Origin: Candidatus Cloacimonadota bacterium
GTDB taxonomy: Bacteria > Cloacimonadota > Cloacimonadia > Cloacimonadales > TCS61
Assembly (NCBI GenBank): GCA_021734245.1
Contig: JAIPJH010000002.1
Location: 1 to 64,000, forward strand
Length of the DNA stretch: 64,000 bases
Direction: 5' to 3'
Shown here: one piece after another, positions 25,468 to 40,000 of the stretch
Numbering within the stretch: the stretch's first letter is position 1
Layout of the letters: every line of letters starts with the position of its first letter
The notes under the pieces: model-generated
Databases searched by the model: none
What the model saw: only the letters and a program-made list of their open reading frames with translations
What the model was told of the DNA's origin: nothing
Translations under genes and position numbers: made by a program

Positions 25468-25665
25468 CTCCTTTATTTTTTCATCTTTTATCTTTAATAT
25501 AATTCAATATTACACAATGTCAAATAGTTTGCTGAAAGTAAGGAATTTTGCTTTTAAATATTTTCGGAATATCAGTTTGGGATTGAAAATGATATTTCAT
25601 TATAAATATTCAATTTCATAAAAATTATGATTGACTTTCCCTGCTATTATATTGATTTCTCGATC

Positions 25666-26994
25666 ATGAAAAAGAAATTAATTGAAATTGATCTGCTGAT
25701 CCAAAACGGATTGCTGTTAACTTATAATCAAAAACCCCGAATCGGCAGTGTTGCCATCCAAGATAACAAGATCATGGAAATTGGGGAAAACGCGACTTTA
25801 GAAAGAAAATACAATTGGAAAAATCTGCTGGATGCCACCGGAAAGATCGTGATGCCGGGATTTGTGAACACCCATACTCATGCAGCCATGAGCTATTTCA
25901 AGGGCTTGGCGGACGATCTGCCATTAATGGATTGGCTTACCAATTTCATCTGGCCGGCAGAAAAACATTTTCTGACTGCTGAATTCGTGTATGATGCAGT
26001 TCTACATGGATGCGCCGAAATGATCCGTCACGGTATAACCTGTTTTAACGACATGTATTTTTTTGGTGATGAAGCGGCACAAGCTGCTCAAAAAGTAGGC
26101 ATTCGAGCAGTTTTGGGTGAAGGAGTTCTGGATTATCCGGCGGTAAAATATCAAAATGCAGATGAGATTTTTGCCTATATTTCGGAAATGCATGCCAAAT
26201 ATAAAGATCATGGTCTGATAGATTTTGCTGTGGCTCCTCATGCAATTTACACTTGTGGAAAAACCAATCTGATCAAAGCAAAAGAGCTGGCGGCAAAACT
26301 GGGAATTCTTCTGCATCTGCATCTTTCGGAAACCAGACAGGAAGTTGAAGATTGCCTGAAAGAACACAGCGTGCGCCCCACAGAATATTTGAATCAGCTG
26401 GGAATTTTCGAGCAACCTGTCGTTGCTGCTCATGCCATCTGGCTGAGTAGAGAGGAACATGATATTCTGGCGGAAAAAAATGTCTCTATTGCCATCAATA
26501 CCAGTAGTAATCTGAAGCTGGCTTCCGGTTTCGATTCCTTTGCCTATTATCTGAAAGAAGGCATCAACCTGAGCCTGGGAACAGATGGCGTAGCCAGCAA
26601 CAACAATCTGAGTATGCTGCAGGAGATCAGTTTAACGGCAAAATTGCAGAAAGCGCTCAATAATGATCCGACCATTCTGCCAGCCCGGCAGATGATCGAA
26701 ATAGCCACGCTGGGCGGTGCAAAAGCTCTGCAGAAGCAGAACTCGATCGGCTCATTGCAGGAAGGCAGACTTGCCGATCTGATCACAATCGATATTAACA
26801 GTCTGGAAGCTCTTCCCATCTACGATCCTTTTTCGCATCTTGTCTATTCGCTTTCTTCCGAACATATTAAAGACGTGGTGATTAATGGCAATATCGTGAT
26901 GAAAGATCGCCAACTGCAATTTGTGGAAGAAGCCGAATTGCTTGCAAAAGCCCGCTATCACCAGCAAAAAATTACAGAATTTGTGGCAAAGTGA
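25666..26994 (+). CDS. Amidohydrolase, MtaD-like (5-methylthioadenosine / S-adenosylhomocysteine deaminase family)
   Basis: A 442-residue metal-dependent deaminase. Motifs include the metal-binding NTHTHAAMSYFKGLADDLPL, HLSETRQEVEDC, VAAHAIWLS and GTDGVASNNNLSM, all typical of MtaD/TrzA enzymes that deaminate adenosine-like compounds in methionine salvage. An earlier in-frame ATG at 25627 would add 13 residues of non-conserved sequence (MIDFPCYYIDFSI), so 25666 is preferred. Neither start has a clear Shine-Dalgarno. Exact substrate not provable from sequence alone. Confidence 0.87.
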   Translation: MKKKLIEIDLLIQNGLLLTYNQKPRIGSVAIQDNKIMEIGENATLERKYNWKNLLDATGKIVMPGFVNTHTHAAMSYFKGLADDLPLMDWLTNFIWPAEKHFLTAEFVYDAVLHGCAEMIRHGITCFNDMYFFGDEAAQAAQKVGIRAVLGEGVLDYPAVKYQNADEIFAYISEMHAKYKDHGLIDFAVAPHAIYTCGKTNLIKAKELAAKLGILLHLHLSETRQEVEDCLKEHSVRPTEYLNQLGIFEQPVVAAHAIWLSREEHDILAEKNVSIAINTSSNLKLASGFDSFAYYLKEGINLSLGTDGVASNNNLSMLQEISLTAKLQKALNNDPTILPARQMIEIATLGGAKALQKQNSIGSLQEGRLADLITIDINSLEALPIYDPFSHLVYSLSSEHIKDVVINGNIVMKDRQLQFVEEAELLAKARYHQQKITEFVAK

Positions 26995-28913: not shown

Positions 28914-30329
28914 TTACAAAAAAAGTTTTTCGATCAATTTTTTCATCCAGTCTTTGAATGAGCGTTTCATATATTCAAAACTGAGTCGCTGGAAGATCTC
29001 TGCCTGGGTGGGATAGGAAAAAATAACCGAAGCAAAGGCAGAAGCTTTCATACCTCTGGCAATTGCTAAACTGGCTATCGGGATCATCTCACCTGCTTTT
29101 TCACCAACCAGTGTAGCCCCGATGATTTTGCCTTTTTTACCGAGGATCAGCTTCAAAAATCCGTCTCGGTCGTTATCAGCTTTGGCTCGATCAATTTCCG
29201 CTAATCGGAAGATCAGAGCATCTCGATAGATACCCAGTTTTTCTGCCCAGGGCTGCGTGTAACCGATATGAGCTACTTCCGGCTTGGTATAAGTCGTCCA
29301 GGGAACCATCTTGTAGCTGGCTTTACAACCAAAACCCAGAATGGCATTAGGCACGACCTTTCCAGCCTGATATCCCGCCATGTGGGTAAACTGGAAGGGA
29401 CCTGTCACATCGCCGGCAGCAAAGATATTTTTTATCGATGTTTTCATTTTATTATCGCTGATGATGTAACCGCGCTTATCTGTTTTTACCCCGAGTTTAT
29501 CCAAGTTCAAACCGGTTGTATTGGGAAGGCGTCCGGCAGAAACCAGAAGTGCGTCACCGGAAATTTTAATTTCTTTTCCGGCACTTTCCACCAATACAGT
29601 TTTCAGCTTATCCTGCTGTGAAACCGCTTTAACTTTGCACTGCAAACACAGCTCCACTCCATCGCGATCAAAAACCTCTTTCATCACTTGCCAAACTTCC
29701 GGATCATCTTTGGGGAAGAGATGATCGTTATGATCGATGATGGTAACTTTTGCTCCTAAATGCCGAAACCCTTGCCCCAATTCCAAACCGATCGGTCCGC
29801 CACCGATTATCACCAGATGATCTGGCAGCTCACTTAGATCGAAGATCGTTTTATTGGTAAGGAAATCTACTTTTCCCAAACCGGGAATGGGCGGAATGCG
29901 AGCCGTGGAACCAGTGGCAATAACAATTTTCTTGCCGCTTATTTGCTTGTCTCCAAGCTGCACAGTGTGCGGGTCGATAAGAGTTGCTTCAACCAGAAAT
30001 ACATCTACTCCCAATCCTTCAAATCTCTCTTTGGAATCATGGGGTTCGATCTCGGCGATCACCGATTTTACCCGCTGCATCACTTTTTTCAGATCAACTT
30101 TTTGTAAATCCGCAGCCAGGGCAAATTCATCTGAATTTGTAATATCCTTTGCCAGATGGGCAGTCCTTAAAAAAGTTTTGCTGGGAACGCAGCCGTAGTT
30201 CAGGCAGTCGCCACCCATTTTATGATTTTCGATCAGAGCTACTTTGGCACCCAATCCCGCTGCACCGGAAGCAACTGTAAGACCGGCGCTGCCTGCCCCC
30301 AGAACAATTACATGATAATCATATTTCAT
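28914..30329 (-). CDS. FAD/NAD(P)-dependent disulfide oxidoreductase (mercuric reductase / dihydrolipoyl dehydrogenase-like)
   Basis: A 471-residue flavoenzyme. It has FAD-binding VLGAGSAGLTVASGAAGLG, redox disulfide GGDCLNYGCVPSK, NAD-binding VIIGGGPIGLELGQGFRHLG and the second FAD motif NIFAAGDVTG. In true lipoamide dehydrogenases the C terminus holds HPTxxE. Here the equivalent is SYPTQAE: the His is Tyr, so it is probably not a standard E3. A C-terminal basic helix replaces the usual end. It overlaps the DUF547 gene upstream by four bases. The partner substrate is unknown. Confidence 0.85.
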   Translation of the reverse strand: MKYDYHVIVLGAGSAGLTVASGAAGLGAKVALIENHKMGGDCLNYGCVPSKTFLRTAHLAKDITNSDEFALAADLQKVDLKKVMQRVKSVIAEIEPHDSKERFEGLGVDVFLVEATLIDPHTVQLGDKQISGKKIVIATGSTARIPPIPGLGKVDFLTNKTIFDLSELPDHLVIIGGGPIGLELGQGFRHLGAKVTIIDHNDHLFPKDDPEVWQVMKEVFDRDGVELCLQCKVKAVSQQDKLKTVLVESAGKEIKISGDALLVSAGRLPNTTGLNLDKLGVKTDKRGYIISDNKMKTSIKNIFAAGDVTGPFQFTHMAGYQAGKVVPNAILGFGCKASYKMVPWTTYTKPEVAHIGYTQPWAEKLGIYRDALIFRLAEIDRAKADNDRDGFLKLILGKKGKIIGATLVGEKAGEMIPIASLAIARGMKASAFASVIFSYPTQAEIFQRLSFEYMKRSFKDWMKKLIEKLFL

Positions 30330-31069
30330 CTTCTTTCTTCCTTTGGAATGTTCAGATTCCAGTTATAATCCAGATACTTGATTTTGTAAGCACTAATATC
30401 AACCTCAGAATATTTCTCGATAAATTTCGGCACGCTTTCAAAATCGTCTTTGAACCATTTGAAAATATTGGAGATTTCTGCCGTTTTTTTGATTCGATTC
30501 ACTTTCATACCTTTTGTTTTGTTCTGCAAAAAGCGTTTGGTATTTTCTTCCAGTTGGCCGATCACAGTTTCAGGTCGATAGGCTTGTTTGATCAGATCGG
30601 GACAGGAAAGAGATGCACAAACTATACCGAAATGGATAAGCGGCTGGTTCATCGGCCGCAGTATTTCATGCTCGATCTCGCCCAGTGAGTAAATCCTGCC
30701 ACCAACATCTATTGCCTCATTCTTCCAAACCGGTTTGAACAGATTACCGCCATCTTTAATGCTGGCTGGGATATTATTATCCAATACAACTTTGACGGCT
30801 GCGATGTTGTAAATATTGATCCAGAATGCCAGTTTCTTTTCGTGATTTGACAAATGGGAAATATCAAACTTTTGCAGTGAAAGAATGATTTCGGCAAATA
30901 TAGTATCGTTTTCTAATTTTCGATAGTCCAGACTATGAAATGCGATGCCCTCTTTCGTTTCTGCTTGAATATATTTATTACTCAGCTTATCCCATTTATC
31001 ATAAATTTCGGTCTGCGCTGCCAGATTTAAAATTATTAGCAACAATATTGTTATCAGTGCTGTTTTCAT
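30326..31069 (-). CDS. DUF547 domain protein, exported
   Basis: A 247-residue protein with a signal peptide (MKTALITILLLIILNLAAQT). The DUF547 core includes KLAFWINIYNIAAVKVVL, IYSLGEIEHEILRP and HFGIVCASLSCPDL. The family, of papain-like fold by some predictions, has no proven activity. The conserved Cys in ASLSCP and His in LIHFGIV could be catalytic; this is inference. Its start lies 71 bp inside the end of the upstream transferase gene and its end overlaps the oxidoreductase gene. It is thus tightly coupled within the operon. It is a frequent neighbour of ArsS-type genes. Confidence 0.83.
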   Translation of the reverse strand: MKTALITILLLIILNLAAQTEIYDKWDKLSNKYIQAETKEGIAFHSLDYRKLENDTIFAEIILSLQKFDISHLSNHEKKLAFWINIYNIAAVKVVLDNNIPASIKDGGNLFKPVWKNEAIDVGGRIYSLGEIEHEILRPMNQPLIHFGIVCASLSCPDLIKQAYRPETVIGQLEENTKRFLQNKTKGMKVNRIKKTAEISNIFKWFKDDFESVPKFIEKYSEVDISAYKIKYLDYNWNLNIPKEERR

Positions 31070-31730
31070 CGATCACCTCGCTATTTAAGATACGCCTGAT
31101 TTCTTGAGCAATTCGTTCATTGCGGCTTACTTTACCCAGGAATTCTTTGACATCATCAAAATTATCGAAATCACATCTTTTGCTAATAATATATAGTTTA
31201 TTTTTGTTATCCAAAACTTTTTCTGTGGTTTGCTGGAAGACCTGATCTGTGCTCCAGGAGATTCTTTGAAAATATTGCGGATCAAAACTCTTTCTGGTAA
31301 AGCCGATCAGATAATATCCGCCATCTTCGGCAGGACCCAGGACAACATCATGTTTTTTCAGAGAAGCGGCAGCTTCCAGAATCAACTCTGCGGAAAGTTC
31401 GGGCACATCGGCTCCGATAAGTACAGCGGCATCGAATGGCTGCCGAAAACAGCCGGCAAAAGCATTTGCCATTCGCCCACCCATGCCGTTTCCAGACTGC
31501 AGATTAAATTCCTGCTCCAGCCCCAGAAGTTGCTGAAAATTTTTCAGAGAAGCGGCAGGCGAATATTCGATGCCCACCGGCAAGCCACTTTCGATAACAC
31601 GCTGCCAGTTATCCAGTAATAAAACTTTATAGATCTCTGCTGCTTTTTCTGCCCCTATCGTTCGGGCTAATCTGGATTTCACCTGACCCGCTTGAGGGTA
31701 TTTGGTAAAAAAAATAAGTTTGCATTTCAT
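30999..31730 (-). CDS. TIGR04282-type glycosyltransferase (arsenosugar / rSAM-selenodomain-associated transferase)
   Basis: A 243-residue protein with the family's N terminus KLIFFTKYPQAGQVKSRLAR, the GT-A type metal motif GADVPELS and the signature GPAEDGGYYLIGF. Members sit beside ArsS radical SAM genes and are presumed nucleotide-sugar-type transferases; the reaction is unproven. The last ~25 residues (from ENSTDNN) are poorly conserved and overlap the start of the DUF547 gene. Its ATG lies 18 bp after the extended (selenocysteine) reading frame of ArsS. Confidence 0.87.
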   Translation of the reverse strand: MKCKLIFFTKYPQAGQVKSRLARTIGAEKAAEIYKVLLLDNWQRVIESGLPVGIEYSPAASLKNFQQLLGLEQEFNLQSGNGMGGRMANAFAGCFRQPFDAAVLIGADVPELSAELILEAAASLKKHDVVLGPAEDGGYYLIGFTRKSFDPQYFQRISWSTDQVFQQTTEKVLDNKNKLYIISKRCDFDNFDDVKEFLGKVSRNERIAQEIRRILNSEVIDENSTDNNIVANNFKSGSADRNL

Positions 31731-31739
31731 TTCGTTCAG

Positions 31740-31772
31740 CGGAATAAACTATTCCGAGATTTCGCCCCCTCA
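31740..31772 (-). promoter_or_regulatory. Candidate UGA selenocysteine codon and bacterial SECIS stem-loop
   Basis: On the minus strand the ArsS frame meets TGA at 31772-31770. Thirteen bases later a hairpin CGGAAT-AGTTT-ATTCCG (31756-31740) follows, with a GU in its apical loop about 21 bases after the UGA. Bacterial SECIS elements place a GU-containing apical loop about 16-37 nt downstream of UGA, so the geometry fits. The frame then codes G-G-E-I-S-E and a TAG at 31751-31749. Confidence 0.68.
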
Positions 31773-32735
31773 GCTGGATCCGCTGCCGGCTGTGCAGCCA
31801 TAGCAGTGATTGGCAACAGCGATCATTCTGGCCAGAATCTTATCCAGATCGAAATCTCTGATGTGACCAATGGGAAAAGCTTTGAGCTCCAGCATTTGAT
31901 TAAAATCACAATCATAAATATAGCCGTCGTAACTCACCGAGATCTGATGACGGCACATCAAATTATCTATAGTACAGGAATTATGAGCATCAACCAGCAT
32001 ATCCATGTAATCCTGCAATTTATCTGCCCGTACCAGGGTTTCCAGATAACGGTTGATCGGAAAATTATTTAAGCAGAACAGATTGTTGAAAACAATGTTG
32101 TAATTTTTATGCAAATTTTCTTTGAATTCCCTTTCCAACTGTGCCTGATCTGAACTTAAAAAAAGTCCGGTGGGATTATAGACCAGATTCAAGTTCAGCG
32201 TTTTTCCATAGCCTCGTTGATTCAATTTCTGCAAAGCCAGAATTGATTTCCGAAAAACGCCATCGCCCCGCTGCCTTTCAGTGGAGCTGGCTCTAAAATG
32301 CGGCAGTGATGCCACGATCTGCACCTGATTCGCCGCCAGAAATTCATAGAGATATTCATAACCGGGTTCTTCCAGAATGGTTAGATTGCTGCGAACGATG
32401 ACCTGTTTGCCGGCCTTCCGCGCTTCTGTAACAAAATAAGGGAAGTTTTCATTCATTTCCGGAGCTCCGCCCGTAATATCTACCGTTTCGATCTGGGCAG
32501 TATTCCTGATCACATCCAGACACAGATCCACAGTTTCACGATCCATTTCACGTTCATCATTTGGAGAAGAATTCACATGACAATGCCGGCAGGTTTGATT
32601 GCATTTTCTACCGATATTGACCTGAAAAGTTTTGATGCTGACCGTTTTTAACGGATATGAACCAACTTCCTCCAGTTTTTCTTCAAAAGGTGATGCCTTC
32701 TGCCGCAGCAGCTTCAGCTGTTCTTTCGTTTCCAT
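31749..32735 (-). CDS. arsS: ArsS-type radical SAM protein, probable selenoprotein (UGA read through)
   Basis: A 328-residue protein if the UGA at 31772-31770 encodes selenocysteine (321 residues otherwise). The radical SAM cluster motif is CNQTCRHC (Cys 45, 49, 52) and the SAM-binding DITGGAPEMN follows. The C-terminal DUF3641-like half ends NHCYGCTAGSGSS-U-GG-EISE. Family members end in a Cys-rich GSSCGG tail in which Cys or Sec occupies exactly this position, so TGA here looks like Sec rather than a stop. ArsS converts a methylated arsenical to an arsenosugar precursor in characterised systems. Here the arsenical substrate is inferred only from the operon. Confidence 0.88.
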
Positions 32736-32740
32736 CTATT

Positions 32741-33088
32741 TCAAATCAGCGTCTCATCGATCTTATTCATCATCTGGGTGCTGTGAACCAGAGTTATGCC
32801 GGCAAGCATGGCAGAAGCCACGTGCACAGCTTCATTCATCTGCTCTTCGTCCGCACCTTTGGCCAGACAGGCATCGGTATAGGCTTCGATGCAATAGGGA
32901 CACTTCTGAGCATGAGCCACTGCCAGGGCGATCAAAGCTTTTTCCCTTTCGCTGAGCGCTCCTGCCGCCATCACGCTATTATAATAATCAAAATACTTAT
33001 CGCCCAATTTCTTGTTCACGCGGGTAATATTGCCGAATTTCTTCAGATCTTCCGATTTGTAATATACATCCATTTCGTCTCTCCTCAA
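32741..33088 (-). CDS. Arsenosugar-associated peroxidase-like protein (AhpD / carboxymuconolactone decarboxylase fold)
   Basis: A 115-residue protein matching the short AhpD-like family linked to ArsS genes. The redox motif is AHAQKCPYCIEAYTDACL (CPYC, with a following His/Glu environment) and the helix HVASAMLAGITLVHS follows. A thiol-peroxidase or alkylhydroperoxidase-like activity is plausible from the CxxC but unproven. It lies 5 bp before ArsS and its start overlaps the stop of the upstream glycosyltransferase by four bases. Confidence 0.87.
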   Translation of the reverse strand: MRRDEMDVYYKSEDLKKFGNITRVNKKLGDKYFDYYNSVMAAGALSEREKALIALAVAHAQKCPYCIEAYTDACLAKGADEEQMNEAVHVASAMLAGITLVHSTQMMNKIDETLI

Positions 33089-33774
33089 CTTTTATCTTTT
33101 GCTCTTGGATAAAATCTAATCAATTTCTCTGCCGGCACACCCAAAAAAAATAATCCCGACAAAATTGGATTTCTCAGCATCACAAAAAAAATACCTTCTT
33201 CTTCCCAACGTCTTGCCGATGTTCTTACTTTATGCGGAATAATGAACACTTTCTCTTTTTTACTTCTTACTCTCTTCATTATTTGAATGTCTTCCATTAT
33301 TGGAATTTCAGCATAGCCACCCAATTCATGAAAAAAAAACCTGCTGAAAAACTGACCTTGATCTCCGTAGGGAATTCTGAAAAGGCGGCTGCGCAACGAT
33401 GCTGTTCGAGAGATCACTTCTCGGATCAGCCAATTCCTGCTTTCAAACCAGATATCAAAAGCACCTGCTTTGAAACCGCTTTTGATTATCTGATCGATCA
33501 TTTTCAGTCCATTCTCGGGCAGCAAACTATCGGCATGCAGAAAAAGCAGGACGTCTCCTTTTGCCTTTTTCGCTCCGGCATTCATTTGGACAGCTCTGCC
33601 AGGTCGGGAAGCAATTTTGATTACGTTATCGTCTTCTATCAAATTCAAAGTTTTTGCATTTTCATCCCCATCTACTACTATTATTTCAAGATGTTTGTAT
33701 TCCTGACTCCTGAGTTTCGCTAGCGATGAATTGATTTGAGGTTCATCGTAAACTGGTATTATTATTGATATCAT
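33085..33774 (-). CDS. TIGR04283-type glycosyltransferase family 2 (arsenosugar / rSAM-selenodomain-associated)
   Basis: A 229-residue GT-A glycosyltransferase. ISIIIPVYDEP and EIIVVDGDENA lead to the metal-binding FLHADSLLPENG, and the family signature RIPYGDQGQFFSR and PIMEDIQIMKRV follow. The reading frame is open 14 codons further upstream, but the family begins at MISIIIP, so 33774 is chosen. It is the first gene of the eight-gene minus-strand operon. An inverted repeat (33807-33830) sits in its promoter region. The sugar and acceptor are unknown. Confidence 0.88.
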   Translation of the reverse strand: MISIIIPVYDEPQINSSLAKLRSQEYKHLEIIVVDGDENAKTLNLIEDDNVIKIASRPGRAVQMNAGAKKAKGDVLLFLHADSLLPENGLKMIDQIIKSGFKAGAFDIWFESRNWLIREVISRTASLRSRLFRIPYGDQGQFFSRFFFHELGGYAEIPIMEDIQIMKRVRSKKEKVFIIPHKVRTSARRWEEEGIFFVMLRNPILSGLFFLGVPAEKLIRFYPRAKDKS

Positions 33775-33806
33775 TAATCCCTCTTTCACTTTGTTTATAA
33801 AAATAA

Positions 33807-33830
33807 TTATTGCCAAAAGATGGGCAATAA
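33807..33830. promoter_or_regulatory. Inverted repeat between divergent genes, candidate operator
   Basis: TTATTGCC and GGCAATAA are perfect 8-bp arms around AAAAGATG. It lies between the start of the rSAM operon (33774) and the start of the YD-like protein gene (33870), where a repressor could control either. Confidence 0.45.
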
Positions 33831-39651: not shown

Positions 39652-40000
39652 AACAACGTGCATGAGACGTCCAGCCTTCACCCAGCTTTGGCTTGGCAGG
39701 CAGAATGACAGTACTTCTCGATGCACAACAAGTTTTCTCGTTCCAAAACTCCAGTTTTGGAACGCAATTTCTAACGAAACTCCGTTTCGAGATTCTTCAT
39801 GAGAACAACCTTTGCAAGATGCTTCCGGTCTTCGTCTCGAAAGAATTCGGGACTACGCCTTGGCTGGCAGAATGACGGAAACCAAAGCTGTCATCCTGTT
39901 CGTTCTTCGTAGTACTACGAAGGATGAAAGTGATCCGGCAGCTGCCGGATCGTATCGAAGGATATGGAATGATTAATGATTAATCTTTCCGACAGCAATT
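39652..40000. repeat. Palindrome-rich intergenic region
   Basis: No gene is seen. It holds CGTTCCAAAACT-CC-AGTTTTGGAACG (39739-39764), CGAAAC-TCC-GTTTCG (39775-39789), the 18-bp perfect palindrome CTTCGTAGTACTACGAAG (39905-39922) and the 20-bp perfect palindrome GATCCGGCAGCTGCCGGATC (39932-39951). The phrase GGCAGAATGAC is repeated twice. These look like interspersed palindromic repeats rather than transcription signals. Confidence 0.8.

Follow-up and report, generated by a model that had tools for sequence, protein, structure and literature searches.

The radical SAM enzyme ArsS, to which papers citing the original work ascribe arsenic adenosylation in concert with ArsM (PMC12159101, PMC8552651), belongs to a family already recorded as containing selenoproteins: as rSAM_SeCys (TIGR04167) it is catalogued among predicted selenoproteins, with AAR34688.1 as an example (PMC9312934, PMC13188914), and the NCBIfam family name itself reads '(seleno)protein ArsS'. 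The catalogued proteins unite a radical SAM domain with DUF3641 and carry a tail of the form CxxCxAGxG[SF][ST](U/C), with either Cys or Sec at the last position of this motif. The Cys-type enzymes of Synechocystis and other organisms, as cited in the same two papers (PMC8552651, PMC12159101), are the same family by name and reported function; Cys-type homologs differ in having Cys at the Sec position. The selenocysteine insertion sequence (SECIS) of bacteria typically lies within coding regions, per recent reviews, and the published bacterial model (bSECIS) has a loop of 3-9 nt with a G in its first two positions, a stem of 4-16 bp and a distance of 16-37 nt from the UGA (PMC13188914). In the DUF466 selenoproteins of Campylobacterales, Sec is the last residue, so close to the extreme C-terminus that the SECIS has to reach past the stop codon (PMC4607533).

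We analyzed the first 64,000 nucleotides of contig JAIPJH010000002.1 of a Candidatus Cloacimonadota bacterium (hereinafter the window), where a minus-strand gene resembles the catalogued ArsS proteins in domain composition and tail. From its sequence and that of its relatives, this gene almost certainly codes for an ArsS radical SAM enzyme in which Sec322 would be inserted at a UGA by means of a bSECIS hairpin, with the true UAG stop lying within that hairpin. Like the DUF466 element, the hairpin extends past the stop; the two proteins are unrelated, and in DUF466 the stop directly follows the UGA, whereas here it lies six codons further on, at the apical loop. The gene is unlike the large GFTU clade of Sec-type ArsS in its GSSU context and in that its Sec group is nested among Cys-type genes. 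Sec-containing ArsS as such being already known, the added interest of the locus lies in the stop within the hairpin and in a probable separate origin of Sec.

Table 1. Features of the arsS locus (window positions).
Feature	Positions	Strand	Basis
arsS read through UGA, 328 aa and stop	31749..32735	-	TIGR04167 (407 bits), PF04055, PF12345, translation
UGA codon predicted to be read as Sec, residue 322	31770..31772	-	Opposite invariant Cys in 91 homologs; UGA in two relatives from the phylum
Predicted bSECIS hairpin CGGAAUA-GUU-UAUUCCG, loop GUU at 31747-31749	31740..31756	-	Geometry scan with null, compensatory change, recurrence
Predicted true stop UAG within the SECIS, UA in stem, G the first loop base	31749..31751	-	Sequence and family pattern
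TIGR04169 AhpD-like peroxidase-like gene, partner upstream of arsS; CPYC motif with both Cys	32741..33088	-	170 bits, cut-off 120
TIGR04283 arsenosugar-type glycosyltransferase gene	33085..33816	-	230 bits, cut-off 182
TIGR04282 arsenosugar-type glycosyltransferase gene	30999..31730	-	179 bits, cut-off 134
DUF547 protein gene, same run as arsS	30326..31069	-	PF04784, 90 bits
FAD/pyridine-nucleotide disulfide oxidoreductase gene, same run as arsS	28914..30329	-	PF07992, PF02852; best NCBIfam NF004991, 509 bits, below cut-off of 620

The ArsS gene and its in-frame UGA

A 321-codon ORF (32735-31773, minus strand) runs into the UGA, after which the frame continues as GGEISE up to the TAG. Its product matches TIGR04167 ('arsenosugar biosynthesis radical SAM (seleno)protein ArsS') with 407.3 bits against a cut-off of 300, and comprises the radical SAM domain (PF04055) and a C-terminal DUF3641 part (PF12345). 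The CX3CX2C motif occupies residues 45-52; its cysteines (C45, C49 and C52) are invariant, along with C311, C314 and position 322 (Sec written as C), in alignments of 9 and of 40 ArsS sequences, and alignment likewise finds C261 and C276 invariant beside C311 and C314.

In the 94 ArsS genes whose C-terminal motif could be read, the codon at the Sec position is TGC or TGT in 91 and TGA in three, with no other codon represented. The 91 Cys codons account for all the checked homologs from outside the phylum, and the three TGA codons belong to the window gene and its two relatives within the phylum. These were the only further ArsS genes recovered from 125 genomes of the phylum; they share 74% and 67% protein identity with the window gene, and both carry the UGA. 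The tail that follows the Cys codon in the 91 homologs is similar to that of the window gene, mostly beginning with GG or QG, and none has an ordinary stop at this position. The family is thus very patchy in the phylum (3/125 genomes, with two examined congeners lacking it), which suggests horizontal gain or repeated loss.

The Sec machinery is encoded in the same genome: a tRNA-Sec with anticodon UCA (selC) adjoins selB on contig C61, both of them complete, and selD (contig C93:8215-9138; locus L018 of genome G000) is complete and has an in-frame UGA of its own at residue 10 (AAGUAGK), suggesting that it is itself likely a selenoprotein. Of selA there is only the N-terminal part, its first 148 positions, cut off where contig C50 ends; full-length copies occur in two congeneric genomes and in both ArsS-bearing relatives from the phylum (G006 and G050), which also possess selB.

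These results bear out the original prediction of an ArsS-type radical SAM selenoprotein with a TGA-encoded Sec, including the minus-strand frame, the GGEISE-TAG tail and the presence of a hairpin, as well as its statement that a gene caller would truncate the protein by seven residues (Sec plus GGEISE; 321 versus 328 aa). Two observations had been named in advance as refuting it, the absence of selB/selC from the genome and homologs that end at this position in an ordinary stop; both were looked for, and neither was encountered. That prediction missed that the TAG is part of the hairpin and that ArsS selenoproteins are an already recorded family.

The predicted SECIS hairpin

The hairpin downstream of the UGA consists of seven Watson-Crick pairs capped by a GUU loop, which begins with the G after 20 nt, and thus falls within the published bSECIS geometry. 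It had been proposed as a 6-bp stem with a 5-nt loop; the structure is present, and it is better drawn with 7 bp and the 3-nt loop. The window contains 2766 UGAs, counting both strands, and just 0.83% of them are followed by a Watson-Crick stem of at least 7 bp in SECIS geometry. An unsupervised scan of all window ORFs of at least 60 aa that end in UGA retrieved stems of at least 6 bp in only two, arsS and a 60-aa ORF. The latter (UGA at 39873-39875, plus strand) is followed by a SECIS-like CTTCGTA-GTAC-TACGAAG whose loop lies 36 nt after the UGA and which is probably a chance occurrence.

The folding energy is unexceptional, at -7.1 kcal/mol for the 50 nt that follow it and -7.6 kcal/mol for the 35 nt from the UGA (published bSECIS limit, at or below -7.5), with shuffle z values of +0.4 and -0.5, i.e., not below those of shuffled sequences. 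Support for the SECIS hence comes from geometry and comparison, not from stability. Against Rfam, the region around the arsS tail gives only weak, chance-level hits that score well under the gathering thresholds; no curated family is of use for it. Comparison is more informative: the hairpin of G050 is that of the window with one extra pair, and that of G006 (AAUGGAAU-AGUU-AUUCCAUU) shows a compensatory change of a C-G pair to U-A.

Two other interpretations of the UGA have to be weighed against these observations. It might be an ordinary stop, created by a recent nonsense mutation or marking a naturally shorter ArsS that ends in GSS; this is how a gene caller would read it, and the tail beyond it amounts to just six codons. 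Set against that are the retention of the UGA in three genomes of the phylum (67-74% identity) together with the GG tail, an equal distance to the stop and a compensated hairpin, the Cys in every other homolog, and the presence of Sec machinery, which render an ordinary stop very improbable. A UGA read as Cys or Trp, through another code or misreading, or a sequencing error for TGC or TGT, from each of which TGA is one substitution away, is scarcely credible: the UGA is common to three separate genomes, all of which have a SECIS-like hairpin after it, the window genome encodes a tRNA-Sec whose anticodon is UCA, and UGA serves as an ordinary stop elsewhere, ending 15 of the 56 long ORFs of the window. 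We therefore reject the ordinary stop, the alternative code and the sequencing error on the three-genome conservation of the UGA, the hairpins and the Sec machinery, and retain the reading of the UGA as Sec.

The Sec reading implies the following course of translation. On reaching the UGA at codon 322, the ribosome would meet SelB with Sec-tRNA(UCA), held by the hairpin, the loop of which begins 20 nt further on; Sec would be inserted as the seventh residue from the end of ArsS, six further codons (GGEISE) would be decoded, and termination would occur at the UAG, whose bases contribute to both the stem and the loop of the SECIS. If no Sec were inserted, the protein would stop short at residue 321, without the selenol.

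The stop codon as a proposed part of the SECIS

In the phylum to which a Desulfuromonadales relative (L063/G196) belongs, 119 of the 395 genomes that we searched have ArsS, many with one in-frame UGA. Together with the window group these supplied 42 Sec-type tails. For loop starts of +18 to +21 relative to the UGA, all 42 have a stem of at least 4 bp; stems of at least 5 bp are found in 88% of them, as against 5.8% of shuffled tails and few Cys homologs, which serve as the controls here since the stem was picked as the longest per tail. In the 19 tails that end in a UGA stop, 81% of cells are paired, as against a mean of 77% after partner shuffling, this weak covariation being due to the similarity of the sequences. 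The register test is the better support for the hairpin in these tails: 81% of cells are paired in the true register versus 16-64% when the loop position or length is changed.

In 32 of the 42 Sec-type genes the first stop lies exactly 18 nt past the UGA, at the top of the hairpin; 13 of these stops are UAG, 19 are UGA and none is UAA. In contrast, the usual stop distance in 114 Cys-type genes is 15 nt (78 genes), and of the 17 with 18 nt, 11 end in UAA. The two types thus differ in stop position (Fisher p ~1e-12) and in the use of UAA (4e-7), p values that ignore kinship. The same trend is seen in the Desulfuromonadales-side sample alone, with UAA stops in 11/31 Cys-type versus 3/38 Sec-type genes. 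Tails of 18 nt also occur in L136, the Cys-type gene closest to the window clade, though with UAA as the stop, and in the three Cys-type rows within the large Sec clade; tail length may therefore be inherited in places, and stop identity is more telling.

In the UAG-type tails, the G of the stop is the loop guanosine itself; in the UGA-type tails, the U and G of the stop close the stem and the loop guanosine comes right after it. We propose that UAA is excluded because the stop has to provide the loop G, as UAG does, or else to top the stem and, with the G after it, provide the first loop base, as UGA does. We consider it fairly likely that the stop codon has a function within the SECIS in Sec-type ArsS, one short hairpin thus specifying both recoding and termination, and that this arrangement arose more than once during the change from Cys-type to Sec-type, at least in the phylum of the window and in the large GFTU clade. 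Our literature search for bacterial SECIS elements overlapping a stop codon found none among openly available papers; the pattern may already be described.

Structure and predicted function

The AlphaFold model of ArsS has a mean pLDDT of 90.5, dropping below 50 for residues 321-328. Its best structural matches are SkfB and EpeE, which we take to be twitch/SPASM-type radical SAM enzymes. A search of solved structures by sequence recovered no ArsS, only distant radical SAM proteins (YydG/EpeE, lysine 2,3-aminomutase and one other). The invariant C261, C276, C311 and C314 could hold an auxiliary cluster, which would leave Sec322 free on a mobile arm. A functional selenol, as originally predicted, is a reasonable inference; on its flexible C-terminal arm it would most likely act as an arsenic ligand or as a redox partner with C311/C314. 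Going by its family, ArsS probably uses a trivalent (methylated) arsenical as the acceptor of a 5'-deoxyadenosyl group.

The TIGR04169, TIGR04282 and TIGR04283 genes are all adjacent to arsS, score above their cut-offs and are named by NCBI for arsenosugar biosynthesis. The TIGR04282 gene starts 18 nt past the arsS stop and 9 nt past the hairpin, and a TIGR04169 gene is found near arsS in 72/80 named loci. Adjoining the cluster is a plus-strand gene (25627-26994) for a TRZ/ATZ-group amidohydrolase related to 5'-deoxyadenosine and SAH/MTA deaminases, which might have a bearing on the by-products of radical SAM chemistry.

That an ArsS genome should also encode ArsM, as the source of the methylated arsenical, is an expectation of the pathway, not a defining feature of ArsS. 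Canonical ArsM (NF008823) has no match above cut-off in the window genome (best, 32 bits) and none at 1e-30 in G006 and G050; it has a match in 14 of 16 other ArsS genomes. The arsenosugar part of the assignment is accordingly weakened for the three Sec-type genomes of the phylum: either a methylated arsenical is taken up from outside, or another methyltransferase operates, or the substrate is different, and the arsenosugar label may not fit these genomes.

Evolution of Sec in ArsS

In a 163-row tree of ArsS, Sec rows fall in three places, with the window group forming three Sec rows beside the Cys-type L136, nested among Cys-type genes. A single clade of all Sec rows is rejected (AU p 2.9e-11, on a quick tree). 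The simplest reading is that Sec was gained independently in this phylum, as is probable for the window lineage; on such a quick tree, many losses of Sec may instead account for what look like several gains. Within the large Sec clade, the Cys-type L202/L241 (G340) has a weak hairpin-like remnant (stop context GCC-UGA-GGU) and may have reverted from Sec to Cys, leaving a fossil SECIS.

Conclusions

Standard annotation would drop the selenol of ArsS, which the Sec reading restores, and the phylum is added as a lineage with its own Sec-type ArsS. The simple rule of UAG or UGA, never UAA, where the stop overlaps the SECIS loop may be of use in detecting C-terminal selenoproteins, a class that could escape SECIS searches restricted to coding sequence. 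Sec-type ArsS offers a natural system for asking how termination can go together with SelB-driven recoding at a spacing of 18 nt.
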